This document shows positions 4,261 through 44,889 of a DNA stretch of 64,000 nucleotides, one piece after another. Every line of letters starts with the position of its first letter. Within the stretch, counting starts at the first letter, position 1. The translations under genes were made by a program, and so were the position numbers. The stretch comes from Spinacia oleracea. Lineage: Eukaryota > Streptophyta > Magnoliopsida > Caryophyllales > Amaranthaceae. The stretch covers positions 4,823,143 to 4,887,142 of the forward strand of contig NC_079491.1 in assembly GCF_020520425.1 (NCBI RefSeq), read 5' to 3'. The notes beneath the pieces are model-generated. The model worked only from the letters and a program-made list of their open reading frames with translations. It did no database searches and was not told where the DNA came from.

Positions 4261-4270
4261 AAAAAAAGAA

Positions 4271-18040: not shown

Positions 18041-18402
18041 ACAAGGTTTCTGGTTACAGTAAGTTAATACAAGGTTTCTGGTTACAGTAAGTTAATACAA
18101 GGTTTCTGGTTACAGTAAGTTAATACAAGGTTTCTGGTTACAGTAAGTTAATACAAGGTTTCTGGTTACAGTAAGTTAATACAAGGTTTCTGGTTACAGT
18201 AAGTTAATACAAGGTTTCTGGTTACAGTAAGTTAATACAAGGTTTCTGGTTACAGTAAGTTAATACAAGGTTTCTGGTTACAGTAAGTTAATACAAGGTT
18301 TCTGGTTACAGTAAGTTAATACAAGGTTTCTGGTTACAGTAAGTTAATACAAGGTTTCTGGTTACAGTAAGTTAATACAAGGTTTCTGGTTACAGTAAGT
18401 TA
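18041..18402. repeat. 28-bp minisatellite, 13 copies
   Basis: Thirteen head-to-tail copies of a 28-bp unit beginning ACAAGGTTTCTGG and ending CAGTAAGTTAAT. They are identical by eye, apart from the last, which lacks its final two bases. Such homogeneity suggests recent expansion. The unit holds no open frame of note. Confidence 0.97.
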
Positions 18403-23699: not shown

Positions 23700-26126
23700 C
23701 CGAACACTAATAGAATTAGGTGTCCTTATTTTGTATTTATGTATAATTTATATTTATATATTCTCTCTACTATCAGTTTAATTTCACTTTCTCAGGTACT
23801 TTTCGATTTGATATACGTGTTTTTCTTAATTGCCTTGGTTGTTGTTGTAGAGCTTGATTTAAGTTGTTTATATTTGTTATCGGTTGATATTTGTAGTTAG
23901 TCAATTATTTTCAAATCTAAAATATGGGAGTATATATGAACCAATAGATGAGGAAGTGGCGCACTAGTAAATTTAAAATTATTAATATGTTGTACTACTA
24001 GATTACGTGGATGAACAAACAAATTTGTGAAAAAAGTTAAGGATTTGGAATTGTTCGGTTTGCATAATTTTGTTTCTCTTTTGGCATATTCGATTGAAAC
24101 TAATTTACGATTTTTTAATAGAGCATCTATTACTATATATTAAAAGAGACACCATAAATGACACGTGTCATTTCCTGGTGCGTTTTTTTCTCGCCAAACA
24201 TCACTTTTCCAAAAAAAGTGTATTTGTTTTATTTTATTTTATTCTCTACCTTTTTTATATAAACTATTTATGTTTGGAAACAAAATTTAGTTTATAAATT
24301 ATTGCAATAATAAATACGATGTAATAATAATTATTCTAAATTGGTAATATTTTAGTCAAATCGCTATACTAATAATCGCTATATCACTCAGTATTTTAGT
24401 CAAATTACCATATTAGCATTTAAAATATGCACATTAGATGAATAAATTTAAACGAGTATATTAAAAATGTTATAACAATGCAATAGTTTGGGAGATAATT
24501 AGTTAAATATTTTGTGAAAAAAGTATCAAAATTCGTGCGTGCACGGAATCTAATCTAGTACTGTACTAATTATGGGTGTACTTGTTGTTTGGTTGAGTAG
24601 TTTTCAGAATGGGAGATTTGGTGCAACCGTTTGTTGTTGATGAGGTGCAAAATGCAGATAAGAAGACGTCCTTTTATGTAAAGTTGATGTGGTCAGTTAT
24701 TGCGTACTTAATACTTAGGTTATGCAATGAGCTTTCACTATATGGAATTCACTCCACGGTTTGGGCTGATCCGTTCCCTTGGATGTCTGTCATCTTTACT
24801 GTTTCCAGTCGTAGAAACATCATGTATCTTGTCCTGGCTTCCAGTGTCGCCTTCCCCCTTGCCATGTCTATGTTGGTGATGGAACTATTGCTTTGGTTTA
24901 ATATTCTTCAACTTGACAAAGACGTCGAAGAGGACCGTGCACTTTGGTAAGTGATATGCTTCATCTGTTTTATACTCCCTCCGTCCCGAAATACTCGACC
25001 TGTTTTCCTTATCGGGCCGTCCCTTAATACTTGATCTGTTTCTAAAAATGAAAATATTCTAACAATATTATATTATTTCTCACTCCACCCCTATTAACCC
25101 ACCTACCCCCTACTCCATACAAAAAATAATTAAAAATTCAAACTCTACTCTCCCCCAACCCCACCCCTTTACATATTTCCCACTAACTACATTAAAATAA
25201 TACCCCACTATCAACTACTACCTATTAAATTAAATAAGTCAATTCAAGTCCCTTAAACTCTGTGTCGGTCAAACCGGGTCGAGTATTCCGGGACGAAGGG
25301 AGTAATGATGATCCAATGACCCAATTTAGAATTTTGACACTATTTAGAAAAAAAATCCTAAATTATTTTCAATACATAAGAAAAAATGTATTTATGTGAA
25401 GGTCTGATTTGTCTCAATGAATATTTTAATAATATCAAAATTTTACGGAATATAATTTTTACTAATCTAAAACACTAAAATTAGAGATATATAAAAGTTA
25501 TAAAATGTGCATAAGTAAACGTGAAAATTAGAAATCAGAACATCATTATGGTAGTATATTGATTTACTACACTATTTGGTTTTGTATCCTATTCTTTTTC
25601 TGAATCTGAATCTACATGTATGATGTTCTGAATCTACAAGTGGAGTATTGGGCTTGGTGGGCTAGTATTGAGTTTGTAATATGGCTATTATGAATATGGC
25701 TTGAATATTTTTCTCATATTTCTCCCCAAAACACATGTTCATGAGAATAGATGATCTTATTGTATTTCGTAGGGGTAGATTAACTTTGAATCCCAATCAT
25801 AGTGGGGGTTAATATTATCCTAAGGACAAAGATTAACTCAGCTCGTCCTAATTTAGTTTCTGTATTTTCGTTTCATGATTCAAAGTATAGTTTCTAACAC
25901 TATATTGACTTATTTTGTTCTAATCATGATTAGGAATTATGCACAGAAGGTGTTGGGAATTCTGATAACTATTGGTATGGCTGTAGCATGTGTTCTTTGT
26001 GGGATGTATGGAAGTGTTGACGAGCTCGGTGTTGGCAACGCAATTCTTAAAGTTGTTCAACAGTGCTTTGGTGGAATCATTGTCATCTTCCTGGTAGAAT
26101 TTGAAAAGAGATACGATATTTTCTGA
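23700..26126 (+). CDS. Short Sec61-alpha-like protein (N-terminal part only), copy A
   Basis: Sec61 alpha forms the ER protein-translocation channel. Coding exons are 24609-24946 and 25934-26126, joined TTTG/GGAAT at GTAAGT...TTAG, giving 176 residues. A leader exon ends at 23795 (CTCAG/GTAC), and its intron (23796-24607) contains a Helitron. Family words in order: EVQNADKK, LYGIHSTVWADPFPWMSVI (plug region), VEEDRALW, AQKVLGILI, VLCGMYGSVDELGVGNAIL, CFGGIIVI. The family's usual length is about 475 residues; this protein stops after EFEKRYDIF, near the fourth to fifth membrane helix, with no remnant of the rest downstream. The frame is intact across the splice. A close relative with the same structure lies at 42480-44176. 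Function is unknown: the truncated form could not make a channel alone. Identity as a Sec61-alpha relative is firm; expression is not shown. Confidence 0.82.
24126..24558 (+). mobile_element. Small Helitron in the 5' UTR intron of Sec61-like copy A
   Basis: The 5' end TCTATTACTATATATTAAAA follows A (24125) and is followed by GACACGTGTC. The 3' end has CGTGCGTGCACGG, a short hairpin, then AATCTAATCTAG with CTAG at 24555-24558 and T after it. No coding region. Copy B lacks it at the equivalent place. Confidence 0.7.
24975..25302. mobile_element. Stowaway-type MITE (Tc1/mariner)
   Basis: The ends are CTCCCTCCGTCCCGAAATAC and its inverse (GTATTCCGGGACGAAGGGAG), flanked by TA on both sides (24973-24974; 25303-25304). 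No transposase. It lies in the second intron of Sec61-like copy A. Confidence 0.85.
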
Positions 26127-26520
26127 CAAACTATCTAAATGAAACCTGAAATCAATGTAACTAGCTAGGAAAATTTCACTTCTTTCTACTTATTGTGTAG
26201 AGGTTTAATTTCGAAATTCTCTTATGAACATAGTATTAACTTTTTTTTTCAATTAACTAGTACTACGTACTACGTAATTCTTTCTACACGGAGTAACAAA
26301 ATGTACTATGCATTCCATAATCGCATTAAAATTAGAATAAATAAGGGTCAAACTCACTCATGCCTCCTGTGAATATGTTTTCGCGAATGTTTGTTATGTC
26401 CGTAGCTTGTGTATTCACTCGATATCCTATATCACAAAGGTACATAGTTACCAACATAATTGTTTATACAAATTTCGTCTAAGGGGCAACATTTGACTTG
26501 GGCCAATCTCACTCAAGCCT
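26127..26520. other. 3' flank of Sec61-like copy A
   Basis: AT-rich, no gene seen. Would hold the 3' UTR. Confidence 0.35.
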
Positions 26521-26732
26521 TCTGCGCGCGAATATTCACTTTGACCCTATTTTATTTATAGTATTTGAAAATAAGTGTTACCATATAATATATTGTTGCC
26601 TTCGTCTTATTATATATTTAGAAAATGTTAATATTTTATAACTTTATATAATTAAAGATATTAATAGTCAAAGTTGTACATTGACAAGCGTGTCCAGTCG
26701 AAACGTTACGAGTATTCCGGGACGGAGGGAGT
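26521..26732. mobile_element. Stowaway MITE remnant, right end clear
   Basis: The right end reads CGAGTATTCCGGGACGGAGG followed by GAGTA. The interior matches the outer element at 54000-54630 (TTGACAAGCGTGTCCAGT). No clean left end was found. Confidence 0.6.
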
Positions 26733-26889
26733 ACATAATTCGTGTACCACTTGATTGGTAAGCGTACCAAACACTCGAATGCAGGCACCATGGACAATTG
26801 GACATGAATCACTATGGATTTAATAATAGTCCAATCCTACCCTAATTACCATAATAACCTTTATACCCTATACAAACAAATTTATTCAC

Positions 26890-26945
26890 GAACAACTATA
26901 AAACCCTAAACGGCTAAACCTAAACCTAAACCTAAACCTAAATTC
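26890..26945. repeat. CCTAAA short tandem repeat with telo-box-like word
   Basis: AAACCCTAA followed by four CCTAAA units just before the short F-box ORF. AAACCCTAA is a telo-box motif found in many plant leaders. A role here is only a guess. Confidence 0.5.
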
Positions 26946-26983
26946 TAAAAGCAAATCAAAGATTCAAAGCAAAGTACGTAACT

Positions 26984-27133
26984 ATGGCGAGAAGAAGAGG
27001 AGGAAGAAGGAAAGGAAGAAAGCCAAGACGAAGGAAATCAAAAGTAAAACATCTCCCAAATGATGTTTTACTCGAAATCTTCCACAAATTACCCTTCAAA
27101 ACCGCGATTCGATCCAAGTTAGTATGCAAATAA
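26984..27133 (+). pseudogene. F-box gene fragment (N-terminal 49 residues)
   Basis: ATG starts MARRRGGRRKGRK, a very basic leader. A good F-box core follows: LPNDVLLEIFHKLPFKTAI, then VCK and a TAA stop at 27131. The usual W after VCK and all downstream substrate-binding sequence are absent. A MULE-type inverted-repeat end begins 23 bp later at 27156 and probably removed or replaced the rest. Confidence 0.75.
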
Positions 27134-27155
27134 TGTTGCGATTTAATACAATAAA

Positions 27156-27435
27156 CGGATTTTTCATGAAATACCCCTCAATTTTCACGAAATTCACCAA
27201 ATGCCCCTCACCTTTAACATAATACCCAAACTACCCTTACTAATGACGCGCCGTTAGTCCTCCGTTAGCCTACTTTCTAATTCACCAAATGCCCCTATGT
27301 TGTAAATTATTTCACCAAATACCTCTAAATTAAAAAATAAATCACCAAATGCCCAAATCTAAAATTTACCTTTTTAAAGCCCAACGGATAGTTTTTGGAA
27401 TTGAAAAATAGCCGTTGCTTAGCCGTTGCTTATTG
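27156..27435 (+). mobile_element. Single MULE inverted-repeat end (same family as the Pack-MULE)
   Basis: Starts CGGATTTTTCATGAAATACC and matches the left inverted repeat of the element at 35509-37426 along about 280 bp (CACCAAATGCCCCTCA words, CGCCGTTAG). No matching right end was found nearby, so it is a solitary end or a truncated element. Confidence 0.75.
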
Positions 27436-27469
27436 TTTTTATAAAATATTTTCCAACTCAAAACAAAGG

Positions 27470-27816
27470 AATTACCAAGATATTACCGCCACCGTGATAA
27501 AGGCTAAGACTATTTACCAGAATTACGCAGCGAAATTAACTAACTTTCAAAACATATTAAATAGTTAATGGCCATTAAAACAAACTGGAACCACTAAGGC
27601 CCAAAACCAAAATATTAAATATTTCAAAATCCATTAACCAAAAATAGTACTAATAACGATAGTAGTCATGACTATAAATAGAGTTTATGAAATACGGAAG
27701 ATTAAACTCTCAACACGAATCCCATGATAACTTCTCCCGCAAGTTATCTCTACAAACCTGCTTTATTAAAATTCTACTCCCCAACAACGCAAATGCAATT
27801 GATGGATCATCATAGG
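27470..27816 (-). mobile_element. LTR-retrotransposon-derived fossil sequence, left part of a nested block
   Basis: Contains GATATTACCGCCACC-like words also seen near 50950 in a large LTR fossil. The CACTA element inserted at its right edge. It is probably continuous with 31433-31586 and 34198-38368 before the later insertions, but its left boundary is not clear. Confidence 0.35.
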
Positions 27817-27969
27817 CACTACTACAAAAAGCGTGATATCTCGACGTTGTAGCCTCGACGATGTGGTAGGCTGTCAACGTGAAATATTGTTTCGCGTTAT
27901 TTCTCGACGGGGTTTGATGTCTATGTAATTTCTCAACATGGAAAAGCGTCGAGGAATCAGATAGATGTC

Positions 27970-30146
27970 ACATGTGGCGCACGTGATCTTAAAAAGTGGC
28001 AGCGGGTTTCCTTTATTCAATATTTGGGGAAAAGAAAACCGCTCCCGATAAACCCTAAAATTGTTTCTCAACTTCCCACTCACCACCTCCATCTCTTTCA
28101 CTCACCTCTTCTTCTAAGGAGTTGTAAGTTCAACTTCACAAATTGTTTCCCCTTGCCGTTTGTATTTGTTTTCTATCTACCTCTTTCCCTTTCGATTTTC
28201 CCATATTTTGGGTTCAAATTGTGTAATTTGGGATTTACGTTTCTATTTGGCTGAATCGGAGACTCAAGAAATATGGATAGGTCAGATTTCAGTTATCAAT
28301 TTCGATATATTTTATTCAAATTTGGTCTTATGAATTTAGGTTTTTCTAATTGCCTTAAAACATTTTTGTTTGGTGGAATGGATGTTAATTGATGAAAATC
28401 AAAGATAAATTCGTGGGACTCAGATCCTGGTTCCAAGCTCCCGTTCAACGTTCATGATTTCGGAGATACCTAATTCTCTCATAGGTCAGGTCAGTTCACA
28501 ATTACAATCCCATTAATTTATGTTTTTATGCCTTTTGTTGGTGAAGCAATCTAGGTCTAGTCTCACTTTCTTGTTAGAAAATTTGAATCCGGTTTTTATT
28601 TTTTGATTGTCGGGGTTTGATAATTCGAGAATCGCAATGGTGGTTTATTGATCCGTGTGAATAAATCTGGAATTTGAGGTTTTAATCAACATTGAAATAT
28701 ACGTTTGAGTTTGTTTTAATTTATTTTTTACAATAGTCCATCCCCTTCTTTATCATTGTAGTATTTTCCAGTACAAGAATTTTTATTTTTGTTTCTTTTT
28801 TGGTTATTATATGCCAAGGACTTCTTAATTCATAATTTTAGAATACAGGGTAGAACTTTTTTTTAACTTGTATCATTGTATGTGATTTTGGGTGCAGCCA
28901 TGAGGCATTTAGTATTTCCGTTGAACTTCCTTCTATTTATGGTTTGGAAACAGAAGTCTAGTTGAAGTTATATCATGTTTGAATGATGATTATATTGAGT
29001 AATTCTAAATTGTTATTCTATGTTTTTTACTCCTGGGGTTTGCTGACCATTTTAGGCACAAAGAAACCTTCACTAATATTTTCAGTTCTAAAGTATCAAG
29101 CATCAAGCAAATAACTTGACCATTTTCAACTTTTTGTTTGCTATGAATTACTATATACAATTCAATGCATTTCGAATATACTACCATGTACTATTCGTTC
29201 TATTCAGCAGAAAGAACAAGGTTTGGGTTGTACATATCTAATCCCATATACTCTACCTTTGGAATGAGACTCATGACATGCATTGTGTAAGATAGCCTAA
29301 TCGACCAACTTTTTGTTCATCGAAAAAAAAATTCAAGAGCTTTTCCATCTCTCTTCCTCCACACTGCAGTCGATCTGAGAAACTGAACACGATCTTGGAG
29401 CATCCAAATTTCAACGAGCTTCAATATTTTCTCAGATCCGAACCAGAAGAAACTATGGCATATGCTTATTCTCAACCTTGAAAAGTTCATTGCTCTAGCC
29501 ATTTTATAGGTCTGTAATAGCTTCAATCTCTGATATTGTGATGTTATTTCCGATTTTGCTTGAACTTCATGTTTATTTTGCTGCGATTGTGTTGCGTTTT
29601 CTTGTTTGCTATGGATTTCAAGGAATTTAGGTTTTTTTTTTACTTGTACGATTATGTGTTGTGAGATTAGGGTTTTGAGGGATCGATCTTCGAGGATTTG
29701 AGCGGAATTAGGATTTCACATTGGTTTTATATGTTTTAGAGTACAAAGGTAATTGAGGAACTAGTCAAAATATGATTAAATTTGGTTTATTTGTCTATTT
29801 CTTCAGCGAAATTGGGTCTATGTAAATGCAAGAACTATTGTTGTAATGTGATTAGTCATGCTTGACTTTGTTAGTTTCTTTGTTTGATTTGAAGTCTACT
29901 GATTCCGTATTGCTACTGGTTCTACAAATGTTGGATTTGTACCCAGCTTGAATCAAATGGAACTGTCTTGTTGTATTCTCTAATGGTGTAATGAGTCTGA
30001 GTGCTACATTGAAAAAAAATCTGTGTTCTTTGATAATTTACAGGTAATGTATTTTCTCTTAAAACTTCTAGTATTGGTTTCTTTGTTGCAGTCATTTTTA
30101 CACTCTGTTTTTATTTTCTGCTAACATTGTTTGCTGTCATTTGCAG
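27970..30146. other. CACTA interior, unassigned
   Basis: 28030-28260 looks like a gene leader (pyrimidine-rich, TAAACCCTAA near 28049). The rest is intron-like AT-rich sequence. No exon that I recognise lies here, though 29330-29520 is GC-richer and may be a further captured piece. Confidence 0.35.
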
Positions 30147-30444
30147 GTTCTCCGAATTTGGAGGTCCAGTTCACGAGCGACCTGTTGAAGATTTGGCTTT
30201 TGCAGTTGCCCGTTTCATACAAAGCGGTGGTTCATACATTTACTATTACATGGTTAGTAGTTGTTTATGAGCATCCTCTTATTGTTTTTGTTATTGACAT
30301 TAGAAGGTTAATGTCTGGCCCTTTTGCTTTCTGATGTTGTTCACTTCTACTGACAGTACCATGGTGGAACCAACTTTAAACGAACAGCTGGCGTACCATT
30401 CGTTACAACTAGTTATGATTATGATGCCCCAATTGATGAATATG
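30147..30444 (+). pseudogene. Captured beta-galactosidase (GH35) gene fragment, two exons
   Basis: Exon 30147-30252 encodes [20 protein letters not shown] and on to YIYYYM. Exon 30357-30444 encodes [12 protein letters not shown] and [13 protein letters not shown]. Introns are GCAG/GTTC, ATG/GTTAG...GACAG/TAC and ATG/GTAAG. These are hallmark sequences of plant beta-galactosidases, cell-wall enzymes of some 700-900 residues; only about 64 residues are present. The usual G in NFGRT is K here. Both exons keep their splice signals and frame, so capture was at DNA level and is not ancient. No function as an enzyme is possible. Confidence 0.88.
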
Positions 30445-30549
30445 GTAAGAATTTGATCTTGCATATTTGTGTTTTGTGGAAGTAGTGGTTTTTAATAACA
30501 TTGAAATCTAAGATTGAGTTTGTTTAATTATTTTTTATGATAGTCCTGT

Positions 30550-30840
30550 TGCGTGTTTCTGTCTTGTTTGGCCTGCTGCTGCACTGCTGTTTCTGCAGGT
30601 GTTTGGTGTTGTTTTCAGCTGCACAGGTGCTGCTTCTTGCTGTTGCAGGGTGTGGGTTGTGCTCCTGATGTGTGCAGGCTGTTCTGCAGGGAGTCCAGGT
30701 GCGTGCTGCAGTCAGGTCTACAGGGAGTGTGGTGTTCGATTGCTGCTGTGTGTAATCTTATGTTGCGTACCCTTTTATTGCATTTGTTGTGTTTGGTTGT
30801 TAGGGAGTGGTCTGTACTCCTCTAACTTTTTCTGCTGTTT
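30550..30840. other. GC-richer CTGCAG-rich stretch inside the CACTA element
   Basis: Dense in TGCTG, CTGCAG and GTGTGG words, unlike the AT-rich surroundings. Both Cys-rich open frames over it look like composition artefacts. Origin unknown. Confidence 0.4.
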
Positions 30841-30979
30841 CGTTTAGATACTTTTGTTCATACCTTTTGGTATTAAATTTGTGTTTTGGAGATATATAGC
30901 TAGCTAATTTAATAGTTTGGACATGTGTAAACTTAATTTGACGATATGATATGACGATTTGGAGCGAGCTAATACGTAT

Positions 30980-30980
<1 letters not shown>

Positions 30981-31074
<94 letters not shown>
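30981..31074. repeat. (TA)n microsatellite, about 45 repeats
   Basis: Uninterrupted TA run inside the CACTA element. Its length is prone to assembly error. Confidence 0.95.
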
Positions 31075-31076
<2 letters not shown>

Positions 31077-31586
31077 TTAATATATGAACGATTAAAAAAA
31101 ATATTAAATTAAATTCTCGACTCTATAAAGTGTCAAAAATGATTCGCGCAAAAGTTGTTGGTAAACCCGCAAAAATTATTACTACGCAGATGACCGTCGA
31201 AAAATATATAGCTACACCAAACCCCGTCGAGATTCTCGACGCAGAAAGGCGCCAAAAATTATCTGTAGACGACAAACACCGTCGACATTTTCGACGCGGT
31301 AGGGCGTCGAGAATTTCTCTACGGCCAAATTCTCGACGCTGTCGTTGGGCGTCGAGAAAAATTTTCTCGACGCTTTTGGGCGTCGAAAAATAGCCAAAAA
31401 AGCGTCGAAAAATGACGCATTTTGTAGTAGTGAGGGTCATTAAGGCAAATGCCATGACCAGAAGACATGAAACACGAAGTCAGCAAAAGCTGAGTACTTA
31501 CAAGAATATAGTGAAACAAAACAATAAACATGCATCACTCACTAAGTACTAATCAACATGCAAAAGCCATTTAATAGATAACAAGT

Positions 31587-34192
31587 TGTAATATCCCGAA
31601 ATTTTAAATTCGATTTATTAAAATTAAAAATATTTATTAACTTGATTTCGTTAAATTACGAATAATCGAATTTCGTTATTTTAATCGTTTTTACGATTTA
31701 TTTTCAACGATAAATTTATAAACTGAAATTATTTATTTTTCGTTAACGATAGTTTTTAAGAAATTATTTTAAATAAACATTTATATTTTTAGCAATTTCT
31801 GAAAATCACAAACAATTTCTGAATTTTGCCAAAATTGTGAATATATTATTAAAAAAAAAAAAAAAAAAGGGGAAAAATTTCTGCTTTATTTCCCTTGCTC
31901 TCCACGCATGAACCAAGAAGTTTTTACTTCCTCTCCTTCCCTCAAATCAGTCCATGTTCAATTTCTTGAGCCCCAAGGCCTTCCCCCTTCTAGAATCCTT
32001 TCAAAAATTACAAAATCCCTTCAATTTCTGATAAATTTCAATACCAAAATCAATCCACAAAACTGAAAACAATTCTTCCTTGTTCTTCCTTAATCCGAAC
32101 CACCACCACCTCAGGAAGCCACCACCACCACCGTCCACCGTCACCCACCTTCACCACCTATCAGTCGCAAACGCCCCCAGCCACCCAGACCACCATCCAC
32201 CACCACACACACACCCGCACGAACCCCCTGCCCTCCCCTGCCTTTCTTCCCCTCCTTTCCTTCGCGGCACCACCGACCCCACGCCACCACCACAACCACC
32301 ACACCACCAGCACCACTCTACTCCTCCGACCACCATCAACAACCACGTCCACCAAACCACCGCCCAGAACCACCCCGTCGGCCTCCCTCTCCCTCGCACC
32401 TTCCCCTCCCCTGCTTCCCTTGTTTCGCACCACCACCCCTTCCCCTTTTCGCAACTCCCCCGCCCTCAGCCACCATTAAACACCACCGCGCTCCGCCTGC
32501 TCGCACCGCCCCACCAAGCCTGACCACCCGAGCAACCCGAGCCAACCGCCACCTTCTTCCTTCTCCTCTCCTCTCTTCGTGCCCCCTCCCCTGTTTCTTG
32601 CGTTCCCTTTCCCAGAAACCCAAAGTAACCAAAATTAGATTTTTAAAGATTTAATTTTATTTTCCTTCAACCCATATTAAATTGGGCCAACTAACCATTT
32701 GGACCTTTGGTAAGACCAATCTGAATTTTCAGATTTTAAATTTAGCAATATTTATGTTTTAATAATTTTTATGATATAATTATTTACTAATAAATTGTTA
32801 TTATTTTTCAAGTTTAATTATCAAATATCGATTTTACTAAAATAAATTATCTTGGATTAACAAAAACGAAATTTAAATAAGATTTTCATGAAAACCGGTT
32901 TATGAAATAAATATATATTTCGAATTAAATTTCGATTAATAATATTTTCATTAAATTATGAAATTATATTTATATTAAAATTCGTTATTTATAAAATTCT
33001 TGACTTATAAAGGTTATGATTTATAAAAATATTGATTTTAAATTATTTATCGATTTGGTACTAATTCAAGGATTTAATATTTTGAAAGAAATTGGACTCG
33101 GAGCTCAGGACGAACGAACCAAGGAAAACAAAACCCTTAGCAAATCGCGGAAGTGAGGTAACGGCTATTGCTAGTACCCGCAATCCCCTTATAAATGTAT
33201 TATGAAATTATGACGTTATGATTGAATTTATGAATTAAATGTTTTGATGTGTTTTATGGATTGTGGGATGAAATATGATTTGATTAAATTGTTTCCTATA
33301 ATATGATTTGATTGAGTTTTCTCGTAAAATGATGTTTATGCAATGCTATGAAAGAATTGATGTTTTATGGATCCCAGGATCTAAATGATGTTTTATGATC
33401 TAAAAAGAGTTATGTTATTTCAACTGAAATACAAGCCAAGGCTTGGTAAAATTACATACAACATGATAAATGAAAGTGAAAGACCTGGTTTGTCTGGCAG
33501 TATATAAACTACCATCTTCCTATCTATCGGTCATGCATGCACCACGGACACCTGTCCACCCATGGATTACGAGACCAGGATCCCATGGTTTATGAGCCCA
33601 GGCTCAGGGCCCAGGCCCATGTTACGATGATGAGCCCAGACTCAGGGCCCAGGCCCAGTGGAGAATTCCTTCACGGTTCGTACTTGCCGACAACTAGCAT
33701 GTTAATTTAAAGTTTATGAATGATGTTTTCATTAAAAGTTTATGAATGAATTAAATATGATGTTTTATTAAATATTTTACCTATTCTATTCTCCCTGCGT
33801 TATTAAATAAAATGAATTGAAATGAATTTACGCTGCTAGAATAGTTCGTTACTGAGTCTTCGGCTCACCGTTTTTGTTTTCTGTTTTAGGTACTGATGGG
33901 GACGATGGACACGAGTAGTGGCGAGAAATTTCACTTTAATATTATCCACCTAGCTTATGCTTACAGTTTTAATAGTTTAATAGTTTTAATTAAAGACTTT
34001 TAGTAAGTTATGTACTTCCATTTTGATAATATAAAGGATTATATATATATTTTGGAGTATTTAATAGCATATGATTGATGTTTGCCTTGTAATTTCCAAA
34101 AAGGAAGTTACGGCAGGTAATGTCCCGACCAATTAGGTTAATTCCGCTGCTAATTATGCTTTAATAATTGAATTAGAGGTCGAGGCGTTACA
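31587..34192 (+). mobile_element. Solo LTR, large, probably Ty3-type
   Basis: Runs from TGTAATATCCCG to GAGGCGTTACA, with the 5-bp duplication CAAGT on both sides (31582-31586; 34193-34197). At 2606 bp with no internal region or second LTR, it is best read as a solo LTR left by recombination. It includes a C-rich stretch (32090-32620) that produces spurious Pro/His-rich open frames. The intact target duplication suggests it is fairly young, but a solo LTR cannot be dated from LTR divergence. The family is inferred from LTR length and end type. Confidence 0.78.
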
Positions 34193-35984
34193 CAAGTAAA
34201 TCATGAATACAAGACTCGACTCTTGACTCGACTCTTGACTCACAATTTAATTAGAATAAGTTTCGAACGGGCCAAAAGAATATTCCATAAAGGAAGGGTG
34301 TTGGGAGCCAACCATACACCAAATAATAAATAATAAATATCAGACCATACCGAGTGTCGGGCCATACCGACGGAATTCCAGCGCATAATATGAATTAAAC
34401 AACGTCTTGTATCATTAGTAGGAGATCAAGCTTTCCGACAAGTCTCCCTCCATTGTTCATACTCAAGGTATATACGTTCCAAGAGTTTTGAAGCTTGCTC
34501 TGGTTGCACTTTACGTTTATTAATATTTTATTAAGGCGAACTCAAGACTCAACAGACAAACACAAGTACAATTAATAAACAACAACCAAACAATCTTATT
34601 TTAATGCTTTAGGACTTGTGATCAACAAAGCAAGACATTGTGAAATTACTACCAGGTTCCTTCTCACAAAAGTGAGATTCCACATCATGCCCATTAACAT
34701 GAGGGTTGTTCCCTTGCACGAAAAATCCTAATTCTATTCATATAATATTCCCAATTGAACCCTACATGTGCGGTGGTTTACGTGAGAGAACCCTTCACAT
34801 ATGGTAAAATAATAGTACAACGTGGTACGAATAATTGGCTCAAAAGTATGCTAGACATCCCGTACAATAGCATAACAATAAATAATTCATCCCTTGCATG
34901 TGAAACCAAACTATACATGCATATATATTGAACAACATGATTGACAATGAAATTCATACTCATAATAATCCCAACATGCTTGTTCAACCAATAATTCAAT
35001 AATTCCAATATAATAATTCACATGATCTTTCACCGAAACAAATATTAATCCACATAATATAATTCACATCAACAACAATCATGTAATGTCCTTGACAAAA
35101 AGTGTGGTCGCCCTAAACTTGTACGTACCTGGAATACCTAAGTACGGGGCCACTGTGCGAATCACGACTCAAAGCTAGAAATCAACTCCTATAATTAAAA
35201 TAATAAAACTTAATTATTAATCATGTTTACTAAATTTCCAGCAACTATTTAAGACTCTAAAACCTTTGTTTTGATTAGAAATTAATCGTTCTTTAACAAT
35301 CTAATAGTCTCAAATGGTCAATTAAAGTCCTAGTACCAAAAACATTGACTTTTGGCCTTTAAAATCATTAAAAATTAATACTTTACGGCCTTATATTAAA
35401 TATGAAAATTAAGATTGATTCCCATAATTTAAATCATCATTAAATATGTAAATCAATTGCCTATACAGTTGGGATTAAAACCCTATTAATAAACAATCAT
35501 AAAAACTACGGATTTTTCATGACATACCCCTCAATTTTCACGAAATTCACCAAATGCCCCTCAACTTTCAGAAATTCACCAAATGCCCCTCACCTTTAAT
35601 ATAATACCCAAACTACCCTTACTAATGACACGCCGTTAGTCCGCCGTTAGCCTACTTTTCTAATTCACCAAATTCCCCTACAATGTAACTTATTTTACCA
35701 AATACCCCTATTTTAAAATATAATTCACCAAATGCCCAAATGTAAAAATTACCTTTTTAAAGCCCAACGGCTAGTTTTTGGGCATGTGTATGTCGACCGA
35801 AAAGATGGAACAATCCTTGTCGGCTGGTGTTACGGGGGAGGAAATTGATGAAGCAGGTTCTCCGTGCTAATTTGTTGGTGGCGTTTCTGGGTTTTCTCCG
35901 GCTAACAATTGTCCATTGGTTGGGGTTGGGGTTTGGTTGGGGTTGGGTTCTCTCTCTCCATTTTTTTTAAGACAAGTGAGAGTC

Positions 35985-36593
35985 TTTTTATTATTAGATG
36001 CGAATACAACATTAGTTTACACCATAACTGAGCTTAATCATAGTTTAGGGAAGTTGCTGTCAAAAATCCGTAGCTCTAGCGACAACCACATGTCCATAAT
36101 AGGACTAGACATCGAAAGACACTACTGTCAAGATGACACCAAACACCAACTTGCTGAAAAAGTTGCCATAGTGAAGCTGTGTTTCTTCGACAATTGCTTG
36201 ATTATCCAGTTGTTGCGGATTAATAAACCTATTTGTTCACTGGCCTAGTTCTTCCAAAGACAAGAGCTTACCTTTGTTGCTGTTAAAATGAACAACTGTC
36301 TTAAAGCGTTGAACAGAGATTATGGGATTCAATGCAGGAATGCTTTTGATTTGGGTGAATTGGTTGTAACTGTTAAACAGGATAAAAAACAGACCAATGA
36401 AAAGTTCAAAACATTTGGATTGCAATATTTGACGAATCTATTTACATCGGGTAAAGAATTGTTTTTGTACGTGCTTAAAGGTCCTGCAGCACCTCTAGGA
36501 AGTTGGGGTGCTACTATGTTGTCTTTAGAACAAATTGAAGCAGCTACTCGTGATGCTTACTTGTGCTGCCTTGTTGCGTATTTCTCTTGTTAA
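35985..36593 (+). pseudogene. Captured Werner-type 3'-5' exonuclease gene fragment
   Basis: The frame reads SIIGLDIER (motif I, DxE), EKVAIVKLCFFDNCLIIQLL, FVAVKMNNCLKALNRDYGIQ, FDLGELV (motif II Asp), LGSWGATMLSLEQIE, then ATRDAY (motif III). This order is the DnaQ-like 3'-5' exonuclease domain of plant WRN-exonuclease-like proteins. One in-frame stop (36246-36248) separates the first part from the second. At motif III the expected Tyr four residues before the catalytic Asp is Ala. The coding segment has no intron left, unlike a DNA-level capture of a spliced gene, but many plant genes of this family lack introns. Likely non-functional. Confidence 0.85.
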
Positions 36594-37144
36594 TTACTCC
36601 ATATTTGGGAACTAAAGTGCTTCCTCATGAAATTGTAATCAATCTAGCATTTCTGCTGCTAATAGTTTCAGATGTGTCAGAAATAAAGTGTACTAAAAAT
36701 ATCAGCAACAGATTAAGCATATTCAACACACAAAGAAACATCACTTATCAAACTAGATTAAGCATATTCACCATTCAAAAACATCATAATTATCATATTC
36801 ACCATTCAAAAATAACTTCATATAGTGACAGATATACTGAAACAATATGTAGTATGGATCAAAAACATCATAATTAAGCATATTCGCCATTGTTGCTTGT
36901 ATCACACTTGTAGTATACCCTTTGTGGATTGAGTGTTGTATCGGAGCTACGAATGACAAATTTCCTCCCACGATAACAGATTTTATTTGGGACTCTAACA
37001 TATGTGGACTCATTATGTGTGGATAATGATTTTGAATGATAACTCATGACACAAAATGAGATGAAACTACAACAAAAAAATTTGGTGACTAAATAAACAC
37101 TCAGAACAGGGTTATTTATATTAAAACAATAAGCTACGGCTATT
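36594..37144. other. Pack-MULE interior downstream of the captured gene
   Basis: AT-rich 3' sequence, possibly captured 3' UTR. It contains three short ATTCACCATTCAAAAA-type repeats (about 36716-36815). No gene. Confidence 0.4.
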
Positions 37145-38368
37145 TTTCAATCCCAAAAAACTAGCCGTTGGGCTTTAAAAAGGTAATTTTTACATTTGGG
37201 CATTTGGTGAATTATATTTTAAAACAGGGGTATTTGGTGAAATAAGTTACATTGTAGGGGCATTTGGTGAATTAGAAAAGTAGGCTAACGGCGGACTAAC
37301 GGCGCGTCATTAGTAAGGGTAGTTTGGGTATTATATTAAAGGTGAGGGGCATTTGGTGAATTTCTGAAAGTTGAGGGGCATTTGGTGAATTTCGTGAAAA
37401 TTGAGGGGTATTTCATGAAAAATCCGTAAAAACTATGTTTTGGTAATAAAAATTGCCACTTTATTATTTTATTAAATCTGAAAATAATAACTCTTCTAAT
37501 TAAAATCAACCTCATGAATTCAAATACGAAAAACATCATAATACGGTGTTCATAACCGTTCCCAACAATTTAAATAATCCAAAACAATAATAGTAATTTA
37601 ATAATTTAAAAACGGAATTTGGAAAAGGTTAAAAGTATACGGAGTATGAACAATCAACAACAACAACAACACACACAACACAATTGTGTTGCGTGTGGGC
37701 AGCGGCACAAGGCAGCGGCGACAGGCAAGGATCGGGGCTGGGCTGTGCATGGACGAAAACGAGAGAGGAGAGGAAAAAGTGAAGTGCTGCAGCAGGAATT
37801 TAGAACGCACATAACTTTTAACCTATAACTCGGAATCGATCGATTCTTGATGCAAAGTTCATGAACATTTCGAGATCTACAACTTTAAAGTAGAAACATT
37901 TTTTCTGAAAACGAACGGAAGTAGGAGAAAAACGGCCGAAAAGAAGTTCGACGAAAGAAAGAGGAATTTAGGGTTAGGGTTTTACTTTTAGGTTTAATGA
38001 ATAAAGTGAGATATTTTGAGGGTGAGCACATATATTTATAGGGTTAGGAAACTCAAAGATTGGCTAGGGTTTAGGATTCCCTCTCGGGCTTCATTAAACA
38101 TAAGATGGGCTTGCTTAGTTTGTTTGGACTTGAACTTGGAATTGGATTGGGCTAGATTAATTTAAAATCGTTTTACTTTTGAAACCCAATTAAATTCCCA
38201 ACTTGAAATAATAAATTCGTTTGGTAATTAATTAAAATAATAAATATTCTAATTAATTAAAAATACATTTAAATAATATTTAAATGGGATTTAAATTCTA
38301 AAAATCATAAAAATACTTTATAAATATAATAAAATTTATTTATAAATATAGAAAAATACGAGGTATTA

Positions 38369-38708
38369 CAACTTAGTCAACAAACACAATTTTAATCTTA
38401 ATAAATAAGAATATATATAAGCATTTGAATATTACAAAATGAACATCATCATGCATTCGATCATATGAACCTCGAAAAAAATATAGATCTAAACAATAAA
38501 CAACATTTTAGATCTTTTTTGGGAAAAAAAGTTGGCAAGAAAATTGAGATGTCAACCAAATTTTATTTTAAATCACTTACATATTAACAAAATCAATTTT
38601 AAGAAAAATAAAATATTATACACAACAAAATGAACATTTTATTCTCATAATATGAACATTATAAAGTTCCATAACTTAATAAACAATTATGTATATAATC
38701 TTCATAAT
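38369..38708. other. No gene recognised
   Basis: AT-rich, with recurring AAAATGAACAT and TATGAACAT words that continue after the LINE (39385-39480). This indicates one older unclassified repeat interrupted by the LINE. Confidence 0.4.
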
Positions 38709-38725
38709 AAAATGATATGAACATC

Positions 38726-39384
38726 CAAGCCCCTCCCAATTGCATCCAAGCCCCTCCCAATGGCGGAAAATGTTATGTAACAACCAAGCCCCTCCCAATT
38801 GCATCTTCATTTCATGCATGGTTGGCCATCTTGGGACGGTTGAGTACTTGTGATAACTTACTTAAAATTGGTTTGTATTTTGATCCTTTATGTTGTTTGT
38901 GCTCAAGGGACAATGAGTCCATTTCTCATTTGTTCTTTGCGTGTGAGTTTTCTGGACGTGTTTGGAGTAGTGTCTTGCAGTGTCTTGGAGAGCATAGGCG
39001 GGTGATGGATTGGAATGGTGAATTTCAGTTCATCTTGCAACACAAGACTAACTCTGCAAAACACAACTTGTATCGATTGGCTGTTTCTATCACGATTTAT
39101 TTTCTCTGGCAAGAACGGAACAAGAGGAAGTTTCAGCAGATTTCGAGAACGGATACAGAGATTGTGAGACATTTTCTAGTTATGGCTTACACTAGGTGTT
39201 ATAGTGTAAAGAAACTAGGTGTTGTTGTTCCTTCTTAGTGTTTTTTTGGGTGTTTGCCTGTGGGCTTTCTTGTTTTTTATGAGTTTGTGTTGTGCTGGAC
39301 CTGTTGGTCTTGGCTGTAGTTTGTATGTAGTTTGGACGTTTTCTCGCCTTTTGGTAATAAAATCTACTATTTACCAAAAAAAAA
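38726..39384 (+). mobile_element. 5'-truncated LINE (L1 type) with poly(A) and target duplication
   Basis: Encodes the C-terminal reverse-transcriptase zinc-binding region (HAWLAILGRLSTCDNLL, CCLCSRDNESISHLFFACEF, YFLWQERNKRKF), ending at 39236-39238. A short 3' UTR with AATAAAATC and a poly(A) tail (about 39376-39386) follows. The flanks AATGATATGAACATC (38711-38725; 39385-39399) form a 15-bp target duplication. The 5' junction carries three near-identical copies of a 20-bp CCAAGCCCCTCCCAATTGCA-type piece. The frame is still open, so insertion is recent. Confidence 0.88.
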
Positions 39385-39399
39385 AATGATATGAACATC

Positions 39400-40092
39400 A
39401 GAATCTTACAAAATGAACATAATTATATATAAATATAAACATTTTGAAAAATCTGGATCTGAACATAAAAATTTCTAGATACGATTTTTGAAGAAATTTT
39501 GCAAGAAAATGGAGAGAGAATATGGAGATTCAACCAGAAAATTTCTAAATCACATAAAAATTTATGTGCGCACAAATGTATAACATAAAAGGAAAAATCT
39601 ATTGAGTTATCAAAGACATGCTTCTAATCAACATGTAAATTCAATCAAAAATCACAAAAAAAATAAAAGAAGGAAATTAACAGCAAAAAAAGGAGAAAAT
39701 AAGTTTACCGCTAGTGAATGATAAGGCGCAAATGCAAACGAATTTTCCGATTGACATTGTTACTTGAGAAAAAAATCACGTAAAAATGAGGAGAGAGAAA
39801 CTTTTGGGGTGAGAGAAATTGAGGAGAGAGAAACTTTGAGGGGAGATAAAACAAAAATGAGAGATTTCTGGTTTTTGAAAAATTTATATGCAATTTTTTT
39901 TTAAAGAAAGCACATGCCTATATAGCTTTTTTATTTTCTTTGGGAGGGGGTACACCAATAGATGGCTATACCCTGGTATAGCCATTAGAGATATTACAAT
40001 ATTAGATTATGTGATACGGCTAGCCAAATAAAATGGTCCTTCCCTAAAAAAAAAATGGGCCTAAAACTTAGAGAATCAAGGAGTGATAAATC
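39400..40092. other. No gene recognised
   Basis: AT-rich older repeat. 39940-40000 has ATGGCTATACC and its inverse GGTATAGCCAT, a small palindrome that could be the end of an unclassified element. Confidence 0.4.
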
Positions 40093-40095
40093 TAA

Positions 40096-40863
40096 GGGGG
40101 CGTTTGGTTGGGGCCTGGGGGGTAATAATCAAGGGAATGAGAAGGGGAATAGGAGGATATCATTCCCTTTATTGTTGTTTGTTATGCCTATTTCTTCATT
40201 CCTTTTACCCCTTTTCTTTATTTACTTCACCCCAAAATCCTCTACACTCATACCCCACCCCCTCCACACACTTTTCCGTTCCTTTCCCCCTTCACTTCCC
40301 CACCCCCTCTCTCTCTCATCTAACCCTAGATTTTCAACCCACAACCAGACCACTACCCCCATAGCCGCCGCCGCCGGACCGGTCCACCGCCGCTTTGACT
40401 TCCTGCTCCGGGAGATCCACCACCTCCGTCGCCGCCCGAACTTCACCATTAATGGCTTCACCATCGTCGCTCGAGCTTCACCATTAATGGCGACTTCGAG
40501 CTTCATCCACACAACTCATCATGGCTTTAAATAGTCAAATTAGACCATAAAAACTCCAGATGTAGAGTTTTTATGGTCGAATTAGACCATTATAACCTCA
40601 CATTTGCCCATGAAAATGTGAGAAAAGGAAGGGGAAGGAGGTGGCGGCGAGGGAGAAGAGGCGGCGAGGCCGTCGGTTTCTCTTCTTTGGTTTCTCCTAC
40701 GCTGGGTTTTCTTGATCTGGTTTTTCTGGTTCTCTCCTCTTCATTCTTCTCCACCCTCTTTGTTACCCCCAAACAATATTCTAAATCAAAGGGATTCATT
40801 CCATTCTCTTTCTTTCCCTTTGTTGATTCCATTCCCTTAACCCTCTGCGAACCAAACACTCCC
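40096..40863. mobile_element. PIF/Harbinger-type non-autonomous element
   Basis: The ends GGGGGCGTTTGGTT and the inverse of GGGAGTGTTTGGTT are flanked by the 3-bp duplication TAA (40093-40095; 40864-40866), as for PIF/Harbinger. The interior is GC-rich for this region (40365-40480, with CCGCCG words), perhaps a captured gene piece. A small palindrome lies near 40535-40590 (AATTAGACCATAAAAACTC and inverse). No transposase. The several open frames over it are not convincing genes. Confidence 0.75.
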
Positions 40864-40866
40864 TAA

Positions 40867-41240
40867 TCCTAACACTTATAAAGCTTCATACTTTGATTAC
40901 ACCCAATAGTGCATTTACGTGCATGCCCTTCATTTCATTCTTTGTTTTATTTTGTCTTATTCTTAACAATAGAGCATTTACGGTTTCACCCTTCCATTGC
41001 TATACAAAATGTATTGTTTTATTTGGGTATAATTTCCTATATATTGTACCTTCGAACTATCAATTAAAACGCATATGGTTTCTATTTCCTGTTACATGTA
41101 AATCCAACATCTAACTTTAACATATCATTTCTAACATTTACCATAAATGGTAAGTTCTTAGCTTTTAAGTAACATTTTTACAAAAAAAAATTTGTATACC
41201 TTGGGGGATCGTGCGCGCTAGCGCACGATCCAACAACTAG
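40867..41240 (+). mobile_element. Small Helitron; 3' end clear, 5' end tentative
   Basis: The 3' end has a strong hairpin, GATCGTGCGC with inverse GCGCACGATC (41208-41231), then CAACAACTAG with CTAG at 41237-41240 followed by T. A candidate 5' end TCCTAACACTTATAAAGC starts at 40867 after A, directly next to the PIF element. The 5' call is less sure. Confidence 0.55.
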
Positions 41241-41317
41241 TAAAAATTAAGTGTGTATTCGGAGAGAAGTCTTGCAAAAAATAATTTGCACTGCTTGCTA
41301 ATACTTTTTTTTCGGTT

Positions 41318-41400
41318 TGAGATCCTCTAGTTGTTGAATAACTCTACAATGTAGAGTTGTTGAAATCTCTATCGTCTATTGAAATACCGAGTGTCCGTTT
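41318..41400. mobile_element. Fragment of the 210-bp MITE family
   Basis: GATCCTCTAG followed by ACTCTACAATGTAGAGTTGTTG matches the ends of the element at 16569-16778. The other end was not found. Confidence 0.5.
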
Positions 41401-41683
41401 TGATATCTATTGAAAAAATAAACTTTATAACTAGATTATTGCAAAGTCATTCAACACTAAGTAACAACATTAGCACATGATTTTGACTACATTACTAATT
41501 AAGTTACAGTTTACTCAAATTATACTTTGATTATCCTTTAGGATTTTGAGCTCTTGAAAAAAAAAAAAATTGGGAAAAACTTAAAAAAAAGGTTTATCGG
41601 ATCGTTGTCGGGTACCTAGTATTTGTAAACGATATCCGTAACCATATCCAATAACCGAATTTCGGAACGAGTACCAATTTTTT

Positions 41684-42262
41684 TAGAGCCGGCAATCTCA
41701 ACCGAACCCAATGGATATCCATCCACCCGATGCGAATTATACGGACGGATGATGTATGGATTGAATGACGGGTGGATCGGATATGGATGAAGGTGCATCC
41801 AACCCACCACCCGATCCATCAACCTATTGCATTAGTTGTATGATTTAATTTATCATCATTTACTTTCATAATATATTAATTATTGTAAATAAAACTATAC
41901 TAGACATAAGCGTAACACAAAAAATTGTGTTCCCTTACTAGGATATATAACACAATGATAAATCTAAAGCTTTGTAAAAGTCATGCTATGGTTTTTCAAA
42001 AAGAAAAAATGGTCATGTGTATTATATGTGGACTAATGATTCCTAATTGCAATATGTGTCACTTTAAGTTGTTTTTATATATATTCAAATATATTTAACC
42101 CTATTCACACCCGACCCACCCGAATCACCCGTGGATGATGGATGGATCGAATGTGGATGAAGAATTTTACGGATGATGGATGGGTTGGATGACGGATAAA
42201 ATGTCATAGAAGGATGCGGATTGAGCCTCACCAAATCCAACCTCGATCCATTGCGACCCCTA
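41684..42262. mobile_element. hAT-like non-autonomous element
   Basis: Inverted ends TAGAGCCGGCAATC and TAGGGGTCGCAATGG resemble those at 280-916. The flanks AATTTTTT and ATTTTTTT form a weak 8-bp duplication. The interior is built of GGATGGAT/CATCCACCC words. Outside it, GGATCGTTGTCGGGTAC (41598) and GATACCGGATCGGG (42278) suggest it sits inside a second element of similar make-up. Confidence 0.5.
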
Positions 42263-42479
42263 ATTTTTTTTTAGATCGGATACCGGATCGGGTTTGGGGT
42301 TTTTCGGATAGTTTTACACTTTTACTCGGCCCTATCAGCAGTACGGGTCTCATAAGTCTATAATGAGTGTTGTAAAAAAAAAAAGTCTTTAATGAGTTGT
42401 TTCGGAAGTTTCCTCCTCTGGGCCTGGTCCACAGTATTTTGTGTGGACCGGGTATATTTATGAATTTTATATTTCCCCA

Positions 42480-44176
42480 ACTCCTTTCACAGTCTCACCC
42501 TTCCCATATCCTCCTCGTCGATTCTGAGATTCTCGCTCTAGCTTTCTCTCTCTACTTTGGATTAATTCCACTTTCTCAGGTACGCTTCGATTGCCTTCGT
42601 TGTTCTTCATTAATTGCCTTCGTTGTTGTTTAGAGCTTGATTCAAATTGTTCGGTTGATATTTGTAGGTAATCAGTCCTTTAATTAATTAGTAGATTACG
42701 TTTCATGAATAAACCAAATTTGCAAAAAAGTTAAGGTAGTGTTTGGAAACTTGGAATTCATTTGAAATACATGAATTGAAATCTGGAAGTTGAAATTCTG
42801 AATTTTGAATTACAAATGAAGTGTTTGGGAAACATTATTAAAAAAATGGAAGGTGTTCAATACTCTGTGAAATCCAAGAACATGCACTTCAAACTCAAAT
42901 TAAAATGTGTTAATTCATGGAATTATTTAACTTATCAACAACTGACTGTAAAAAAAAAATCAAAACCAGCTTCGAATTTGGGGAAATCTAAGCACTAAAT
43001 TTTCGAATTTGGAGAAAAACCAAACCCTAACTCTTTGAATTTGGGGGAAAACCAAACCCTAACTCTTTGAATTTGGGGAAACCCAAAACCTAACTATTTG
43101 AATTTGGGGAAAACCAAATTCACGGTGGATTTCAAATGCCAGCCATTCACTATGGATTTCAAATTCTGAAACTGGGCCTGTTTCTTTTAAGTGTTTGAAA
43201 TTAGGCCAAATCCAAATTATTTTAGTTCCCAAACAGGTTATTTGAGCCAATTCCAAACAAGCCATAAAGGATTCGGAACTGTTTGCGTGAATTAGTTTTT
43301 CTTTTGGTATTTTTGATTGAAATTTGAATTGCAAACGTGATATTTGTTTGATAAATTTGCTGTTTTTATATTTTTCTCGAAAATTTAAGAGTAATTACAT
43401 ATGAAGTATTATTGTTAAAGATCTGACCCATGAGTGATTTGTTGGACCAATTTGATTATTTTTAATAGAGATACTAATTAAGGGTATGCTCGTTGTTGTT
43501 TGGTTAACTAGTTATATCAGAATGGGAGAATCGGTGAAACAGTTTATTCCTGAGGTACAAAAGGCAGATAAGAAGGCACCCTTTTGTGTAAAGTTGATCT
43601 GGTCTGTTATTGCGTGGTTAGTAGTTGGGTTGTGCATTCAGATTCCAGTATATGGAATTCACTCCACGGTGTGGGCTGATCCGTTCCCTTGGATGTCTGT
43701 CATCCTTCCTGTTTCCATTCGTAGAATCTTCCTGTATTTTGTAATTGTCTTCCCCCTCGTCATGTCTAAGTTGGTGATGCATCTATTGGTTTGGTTTGAC
43801 ACTATTCAACTTGACATAAATGTCGAAGAGGACCGTGAACTTTGGTAAGTGAAGTATATTGATCTACCACTATATTTGGTTTTGTTATTTCTGAATCTGA
43901 ATCTATATTTATTTATATTTGGTTTGGTTTAATATCTTAATTAGGGATCGTGGACAGAAGTTGTTGGGAATGGCGATAGCGGCTTTTGTGGCTGTAGCAT
44001 ATGTTCTTTGTGGGATGTATGGAAGTATTGGCGAGCTCGGTGATGGCAACACTCTTCTTAAAATGTTTCTATTGTACATGGGTGGAACCATTGTCATCTT
44101 CCGAGAAGACTTTGAAAAGAGTTACGGTCTACAATCTAATGAAATCGCCGCAACCGCGAACTTGGTGGTCAAATAA
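42480..44176 (+). CDS. Short Sec61-alpha-like protein (N-terminal part only), copy B
   Basis: Coding exons are 43522-43844 and 43945-44176 (TTTG/GGGAT at GTAAGT...TTAG), 184 residues. A leader exon ends at 42579 (CTCAG/GTAC), with a UTR intron to 43520, the same plan as copy A. An in-frame ATG at 43486 exists but lies in the predicted intron; 43522 matches the start of copy A. Family words: EVQKADKKAPF, YGIHSTVWADPFPWMSVILP, VEEDRELW, GQKLLGMAI, VLCGMYGSIGELGDGN. The C-terminus differs from copy A and reaches EKSYGLQSNEIAATANLVVK, where Sec61 alpha has GYGLGSGISLFIATNI, then stops. About 290 usual residues, roughly the C-terminal six membrane helices, are absent. A possible TATA box is at about 42448. 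Role unknown; possible pseudogene with an intact frame. Confidence 0.82.
42733..43262. mobile_element. Possible TIR element in the UTR intron of copy B
   Basis: GTGTTTGGAAACTTGGAATT at the left and the inverse of a TTGTTTGGAATTGG word at the right suggest a decayed terminal-repeat element. It contains four copies of a roughly 31-bp AATTTGGGGAAAACC...ACTCTTTG repeat (42972-43107). Target duplication not found. Confidence 0.4.
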
Positions 44177-44889
44177 TTCACAAGGCCAAAATTCTAAGTC
44201 TCGTGATTTTGCTTTTGTTGGTGTGTTCCTGTTGCAACATGTACTTGTGAACAAAAGAAATCATAGAAAAAGAAATTAATGTAATGTAACTAGGAAAATT
44301 TTACTTCTCCCTATCGCATAGGACGTTTATCTTTCGTAATAGGCTATATAAATATATGCATCTTTTTTCACCAACAAAAAGTTAATTTCAAACTTCTCTT
44401 ATAAACATTGCATTATTGCCTTTTTTTTTTTTTTTAATTAACTGGTAATTCTTCTTGTGCGTTGTAATAATAAAATGTCTGGAGTATTGTCAGGCTATCG
44501 TCAATTGGTTTTAGCGTGGAAGCTCCATTTGGTTTAGACATAGACATTTGGAAGCTCCTCTTTCTTGAGGCATAGACATTCAGACCACATTTTTTTTGGG
44601 TGCAATCAGACCCCATATGATGTGATATTAAATTGTTTACCGAGTATAATGTGGTTAATGGAATTTACAATACTATTACAATACGATGCAATACGATGGG
44701 AGGAAGATCAAGATAACTCATACGGGGACTGTGAAACTAAACGAGTGCATAACTTTGAGGAGTGTAATGTTTGTTCCAGAGTTTCAGTTTAACTTGATAT
44801 CTATTACCAAGCTATGTGATGTGGTGATTTGAACAGTGGTTTTCACAAATGATTCATGTCTTATACGGGAGCGGCGTAATGGCTAACCA
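44177..44889. other. 3' flank of Sec61-like copy B
   Basis: Would contain the 3' UTR. A T-run is at 44419-44435. Two TAGACATAGACATT-type words near 44537 and 44571. No gene. Confidence 0.35.

Follow-up and report, generated by a model that had tools for sequence, protein, structure and literature searches.

Sec61 alpha (SecY) is a highly conserved protein of ten transmembrane helices (TM1–TM10) arranged in two halves. The plug, a portion of the lateral gate and the site of contact with Sec61 beta all lie in its first half, and its ribosome-binding loops are those of TM6/7 and TM8/9. In a stretch of 64,000 nucleotides of the spinach (Spinacia oleracea) genome, referred to here as the window (assembly GCF_020520425.1, contig NC_079491.1, forward strand, positions 4,823,143 to 4,887,142), two genes, A and B, were found to encode only the beginning of this protein. 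Together with two further copies outside the window, C and D, they form a family of partial Sec61 alpha duplicates, the descent, gene structure, open frames and fast amino-acid change of which are evident from sequence. The combination of open frames and fast protein change points to a novel function under contest more than to defunct gene fragments.

With Sec61 alpha the copies share the residues up to about 170–180, the exon boundary, an intron in the 5' untranslated region (5' UTR) and, in A and B, the plug motif. They differ from it in a shortened N-terminus and in lacking TM5–TM10 and the ribosome-binding cytosolic loops, the region of TM6/7 and TM8/9 being absent. They also differ in the ratio of nonsynonymous to synonymous change (omega), which was about 2 in the copies as against about 0.17 in the full-length genes analyzed here.

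Three other systems were considered for comparison. Sd-RanGAP of the Drosophila Segregation Distorter system arose when a housekeeping gene was duplicated in truncated form, and it turned into a driver; the spinach copies are likewise partial duplicates of an essential gene departing from their parent, but drive, germline expression and mislocalisation are not in evidence for them. Decoy duplicates in plant immunity are non-working copies of possible targets, and the copies resemble them as non-working, diversifying versions of such a target. In the part of the open-access literature reached by the search, no effector was noticed that targets plant Sec61 alpha. An ordinary partial-duplicate pseudogene is provided by the same genome (S1b, described below), likewise a SEC61A duplication with parts missing; it acquired a frameshift and a stop codon at low divergence, whereas copies A–D are open at high divergence. 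The copies would represent a variant of the known neofunctionalisation of partial duplicates, and no mention of partial Sec61 alpha copies of this kind was found in those open-access sources.

Gene structure and genomic relatives

Both genes of the window lie on the plus strand. Gene A retains a remnant of a leader exon at 23762..23795, which ends in TTTCTCAG immediately before the splice boundary and GTAC; upstream of this remnant, alignment to B, C or D was poor. Coding exon 1 (24609..24946) encodes a shortened N-terminus, TM1, the plug motif and TM2. It is followed by a phase-2 GT..AG intron (24947..25933), positioned as in full-length Sec61 alpha, and by coding exon 2 (25934..26126), which encodes TM3 and TM4 and closes with the stop codon TGA at 26124-26126.

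In gene B, the leader exon (42475..42579, its start taken from the edge of the alignment) is common to C and D. The 5' UTR intron (42580..43510) has an approximate end, as its acceptor is not fixed, and is partly homologous to its counterpart in the full-length gene. Coding exon 1 (43522..43844) has the same content as in gene A, and a GT..AG intron (43845..43944) separates it from coding exon 2 (43945..44176), where TM3 and TM4 are followed by the short end IAATANLVVK and a stop codon. An untranslated, frame-broken tail remnant occupies 44177..44290 (end approximate); its counterpart is open in C and D. B, C and D have the leader exon and the beginning of the intron after it in common; of that exon, A retains only the last part.

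The description of A and B as two paralogous, spliced and frame-intact partial Sec61 alpha genes, given in an earlier sequence-only reading of the window, was confirmed: spliced open frames of 176 and 184 amino acids were obtained for A and B, respectively. The common exon layout and 5' UTR intron proposed there were also recovered, since both coding introns occupy the phase-2 site used in the full-length gene S5 and the two 5' UTR introns have a common beginning. Larger segmental duplication was considered as the source of A and B and rejected, as homology stops at the gene.

Several insertions were noted at gene A. Its 5' UTR intron holds a Helitron-like insertion at 24125-24558, the start and CTAGT end of which were judged by eye, and a second Helitron-like end lies just upstream, at about 23611. 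Inside the coding intron, a repeat insertion at 24972-25247 matches 45143-44891 in inverted orientation.

The two proteins show 59.6% identity across 171 aligned codons. Their best matches to Sec61 alpha structures (E 7.8e-29 for A and 8.6e-29 for B) covered only the first 170–180 residues or so. By alignment, both contain TM1, the plug motif YGIHSTVWADPFPWMSVI, TM2, TM3 and TM4 and end just before TM5. They were thus limited to the start of Sec61 alpha, as had been proposed, although not reaching the suggested fifth helix, and neither has the ten-helix, two-half architecture. A crude hydropathy scan gave five partly overlapping peaks in each protein. Near the N-terminus, 8 residues are missing in A and 9 in B compared with the full-length gene. 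Scores against the SecY family PF00344 (cut-off 32.2 bits) were above the cut-off for A (32.4) and C (34.5) and below it for B (27.3), and D gave no match at E ≤ 1.

Discovery of the missing C-terminal exons elsewhere at the locus would have spoken against the sequence-only reading. When a plant Sec61 alpha sequence was compared with all six frames of the window by tblastn, no later Sec61 exons were found, the next matches having E values of 0.047 or worse. Those at 38.58-38.85 kb (E 0.047), which overlap or adjoin a reverse-transcriptase open reading frame (ORF), were considered as possible C-terminal Sec61 exons and set aside.

PF00344 and the two window proteins served as queries against the whole assembly (894,210,420 bases in 242 contigs); all counts are lower bounds. 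At least four cluster copies, spanning about 160 kb, were found where two had been recognized from the window. Copy C (C5 4,997,876-4,995,565, minus strand, 246 amino acids) and copy D (C5 5,007,564-5,006,338, minus strand, 200 amino acids) lie 108-120 kb past the window. The plug, which had been stressed as a feature of these genes, is deleted in both and therefore does not define the family. The loss in exon 1 is larger in D; in C, exon 1 is rearranged around the lost plug, and the whole frame is nevertheless open.

Two intact full-length genes were identified, S5 on C5 at 68.59 Mb and the diverged S1a on C1 at 130.20 Mb, the latter matching the plant query sequence at 77-82% over exons 1-3. 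The pseudogene S1b (C1, 24.17 Mb) carries a one-base frameshift and a stop codon in exon 2, while its exons 1-2 are still 88-94% like full-length plant Sec61 alpha; its last exon was not found within the 9.9 kb examined. Matches to PF00344 on C2 (four loci) and C4 (one locus) gave no Sec61 alpha match by tblastn, and no relatives were confirmed in viral contigs. The 5' UTR intron aligned in part between A and both S5 and S1b and between B and S5, and in neither case with S1a. As part of this intron is alignable to S5 and not to S1a, the cluster arose by DNA duplication from the S5 side.

Frame retention, protein change and the C-terminal tail

All four spliced frames (A–D) were open, and none carried the disabling changes by which a pseudogene is recognized; the tail remnant of B is disabled. 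All three gaps in the A/B coding alignment (3, 9 and 3 bases) were multiples of three, compared with 3 of the 14 gaps in noncoding sequence, and the A–D and B–D coding alignments contained one 3-base gap each. When neutral evolution was simulated from the A/B ancestor, both frames remained free of stop codons in 0.5% of 4000 runs. For four copies, all frames did so in 2 of 4000 runs, or in 29 of 4000 with branches 30% shorter, in a simulation that counts neither the stem branch nor frameshifts.

For the A/B pair (171 codons), dN was 0.229 and dS 0.157 by the Nei–Gojobori method (dN/dS 1.46), and maximum likelihood (ML) on codons gave an omega of 1.90 with a likelihood-ratio test (LRT) value of 4.80 against omega of one. 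All codon models were our own implementations and not codeml. In codon trees, the full-length lineages showed omega values of 0.165-0.20. In the four-sequence tree (A, B, S5 and S1a; 164 codons), the background value was 0.165 and that of the truncated branches 2.07 (LRT 8.45, p 0.0036). The truncated omega was 2.27 (p 0.007) after removal of columns near gaps (123 codons), 2.14 (p 0.014) with a stricter trim (114 codons) and 2.48 (p 0.0025) without codons differing by two bases between A and B (148 left). For exon 1 alone, the truncated clade gave p 0.011. Tests restricted to A and B under this model ranged from p 0.007 to 0.22.

With all four copies (six-sequence tree, 167 codons), the clade omega was 1.85 (LRT 12.6, p 0.0004), and masking of gap-flanking columns and of the C/D plug columns (130 codons) gave 2.23 (LRT 10.96, p 0.0009), or 2.32 (p 0.0023) for the crown only. 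In exon 2 alone, where A–D align without mutual gaps (61 columns), omega was 3.0 in the crown (LRT 8.93, p 0.003), 2.51 in the whole clade (p 0.009) and 0.71 on the stem; the five best of 15 topologies gave whole-clade values of 2.46-2.51. In this exon, dN exceeded dS in all six cluster pairs, with 22 nonsynonymous changes and 1 synonymous change between A and D. A dN/dS near one, named in advance as a result that would count against selection, was thus obtained neither on the trees nor in the A/B pair, and the hint of selection seen in the retained frames is strengthened by four open frames with an omega of about 2.

Between C and D, 94 of 600 coding and 81 of 818 intron or UTR positions had diverged (Fisher p 0.0014), and dN lay above the alignable intron/UTR divergence in six of six pairs, although the noncoding estimate is biased downwards, being limited to the pieces that could be aligned. 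In total, coding sequence had diverged more than noncoding sequence in four of six pairs.

The description of the genes as N-terminal-only held for A and B, but not for C and D, whose frames stay open beyond exon 2 and add a tail containing strongly hydrophobic segments. In hydropathy scans, the partly overlapping peaks numbered eight for C and six for D, and an arrangement of six helices with both ends cytosolic is possible in these two proteins. Copy C ends in KKSEKKKLM and D in KKSVKKKLM, a KKXX-like terminus absent from A and B. In B, IAATANLVVK is kept and is followed by the stop codon and a frame-broken remnant extending to the KKKLM codons; in A the tail is lost altogether.

The tail is a candidate for a newly arisen coding end. 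It gave no Pfam match, one PDB match (E 3.9) and no match to Sec61 beyond chance. In a six-frame genome search, in which two candidates were scored, only C and D were among the matches listed; as the broken remnant of B was missed, a diverged source of the tail could have been missed too. Origin by read-through of Sec61 intron 2 was attractive by eye, but shuffle tests singled out only C, and this origin is not claimed. The observed score for the tail against S5 was reached by 12 of 300 shuffles for C, 218 of 300 for D and 83 of 300 for B; the corresponding counts were 5, 140 and 68 of 300 against S1b, and 241, 293 and 162 of 300 against S1a. For the intron part alone against S5, they were 33, 309 and 147 of 500. 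Between the tails of C and D, dN was 0.226 and dS 0.34 (78 codons). Two open tails arose in 6% of neutral runs, and the coding case is therefore weaker for the tail than for exons 1-2.

Possible role and rival explanations

We lean, if only slightly, towards A–D being a selected and diversifying protein family rather than debris. Under this reading, an S5-like SEC61A gene would have been duplicated in part, the duplicate taking along the 5' UTR intron and coding exons 1-2 but none of the later exons, and the copies would then have acquired a new end, which in C and D became a hydrophobic tail with a KKXX-like terminus. Their proteins would have changed above the neutral rate while the frames stayed open. 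They would most likely reside in the membrane of the endoplasmic reticulum (ER) as pieces of four helices (A, B) or about six helices (C, D), which, having neither the second half nor the ribosome-binding loops, could not form a channel. The most likely target would be the real translocon or one of its partners, such as Sec61 beta, Sec61 gamma, or a pathogen or selfish factor directed at the translocon.

Since half of an essential machine is kept and changes quickly, the copies may act as a decoy or dominant inhibitor in a conflict resembling an arms race. We infer expression, ER location, translocon binding and the arms race itself, and the role of translocon decoy, taken on its own, is rather doubtful. 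It is improbable, though conceivable, that the copies are a young, cluster-forming selfish or conflict family made from half a Sec61 alpha. Such a membrane protein would associate with the ER translocon or poison it, either in gametes or in the course of an infection; its members would be diversifying and its KKXX-bearing tail newly arisen, in parallel with the truncated driver Sd-RanGAP. Half-copies with proteins changing above the neutral rate would make the translocon a battleground in spinach, and could themselves serve as a natural tool, a dominant inhibitor or decoy, for probing it.

Several results weigh against selection on the family. Taken singly, most gaps in alignments with C (12 in A–C, 11 in B–C and 12 in C–D), which lie near the lost plug and within the tail, have lengths that are not divisible by three. 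In the four-sequence tree, exon 2 did not reach significance for the truncated clade (p 0.095), nor did A and B alone in the strict trim (p 0.055) or in exon 1 (p 0.22). When all aligned codons were taken together, dN was above dS in only four of six pairs, the exceptions being A–C and B–C, and total coding divergence was lower than noncoding in A–C and A–D. Synonymous change counts are small, and for A and B neither the replacement scores nor the hydropathy stood clearly apart from the neutral simulation, where shares of 0.06 (BLOSUM) and 0.31 (grand average of hydropathy, GRAVY) of the runs lay at or above the observed value. Copy A is like C and D in exon 2 but like B in its plug, so that exchange between copies is likely and can disturb the tree-based tests. 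Finally, the absence of the tail and of most of the shared leader exon in A, together with the broken tail of B, resembles decay.

These losses bear directly on the alternative of slow decay, in which an unconstrained partial SEC61A duplicate and its copies kept open frames by luck. Such a history is a real, if lesser than even, possibility: just four of ten Sec61 helices are left in A and B, most of exon 1 is gone in D and that of C is rearranged, and an omega of one was not rejected in some subsets. It would, however, have to accommodate the rarity of four open frames in the neutral runs, the in-frame A/B coding gaps and the rejection of an omega of one in the four-copy models, whereas S1b, the yardstick for loss of constraint, broke at far lower divergence.

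A mixed state, in which C, D and perhaps B work, A is dying and the window shows mainly the edge of the family, is somewhat unlikely as a full account, and its likelihood is not additive with the others, as it overlaps with both the selected-family and the decay readings. The leader exon and intron start kept in B, C and D but reduced in A fit it, as does the lack of any tail in A; the open frame of A and its excess of nonsynonymous differences from D in exon 2 do not. Decay may be under way in A and perhaps in B, and the window may hold the less healthy members, to which the losses in A and the Helitron-like insertion in its 5' UTR intron point. Very improbable, finally, is an action at the RNA level, with transcripts or small-RNA sources tuning SEC61A mRNA and the frames incidental. 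The resemblance of the copies to the full-length gene at the DNA level, over exons 1-2 and some of the 5' UTR intron, would suit such a role, but an RNA role predicts neither the in-frame A/B gaps nor the avoidance of stop codons, both of which were observed.

Other features of the window

A tandem 3.8-kb match (2664-6434 and 6277-10055) shows 98.5% identity at a spacing of about 3.6 kb and contains internal repeats of 185 bp and about 250 bp. At 18039-18402, a 28-bp unit is present in 13 perfect copies, likely a recent minisatellite. An ORF at 20012-20779 encodes a KIB1-4 beta-propeller (E 3e-20); KIB1-4 genes are often linked to F-box genes, and an F-box-like start, LPNDVLLEIFHKLPF, was recognized by eye at about 27.05 kb, downstream of gene A. 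The ORF at 21329-21790 gave a PEARLI-4 match just below the cut-off (29.4 vs 29.9 bits). Reverse-transcriptase zinc-binding and RVT_3 ORFs at 38717-39238 and 60164-60586 are probably remnants of elements without long terminal repeats (non-LTR). At 61216-61397, six copies of a 30-bp repeat within an ORF encode an acidic GEAEPDDAVT repeat with no Pfam match. A further repeat occurs three times at 90-97% identity (27163-27421, 35507-35785 and 37130-37428), the third copy being inverted relative to the others.

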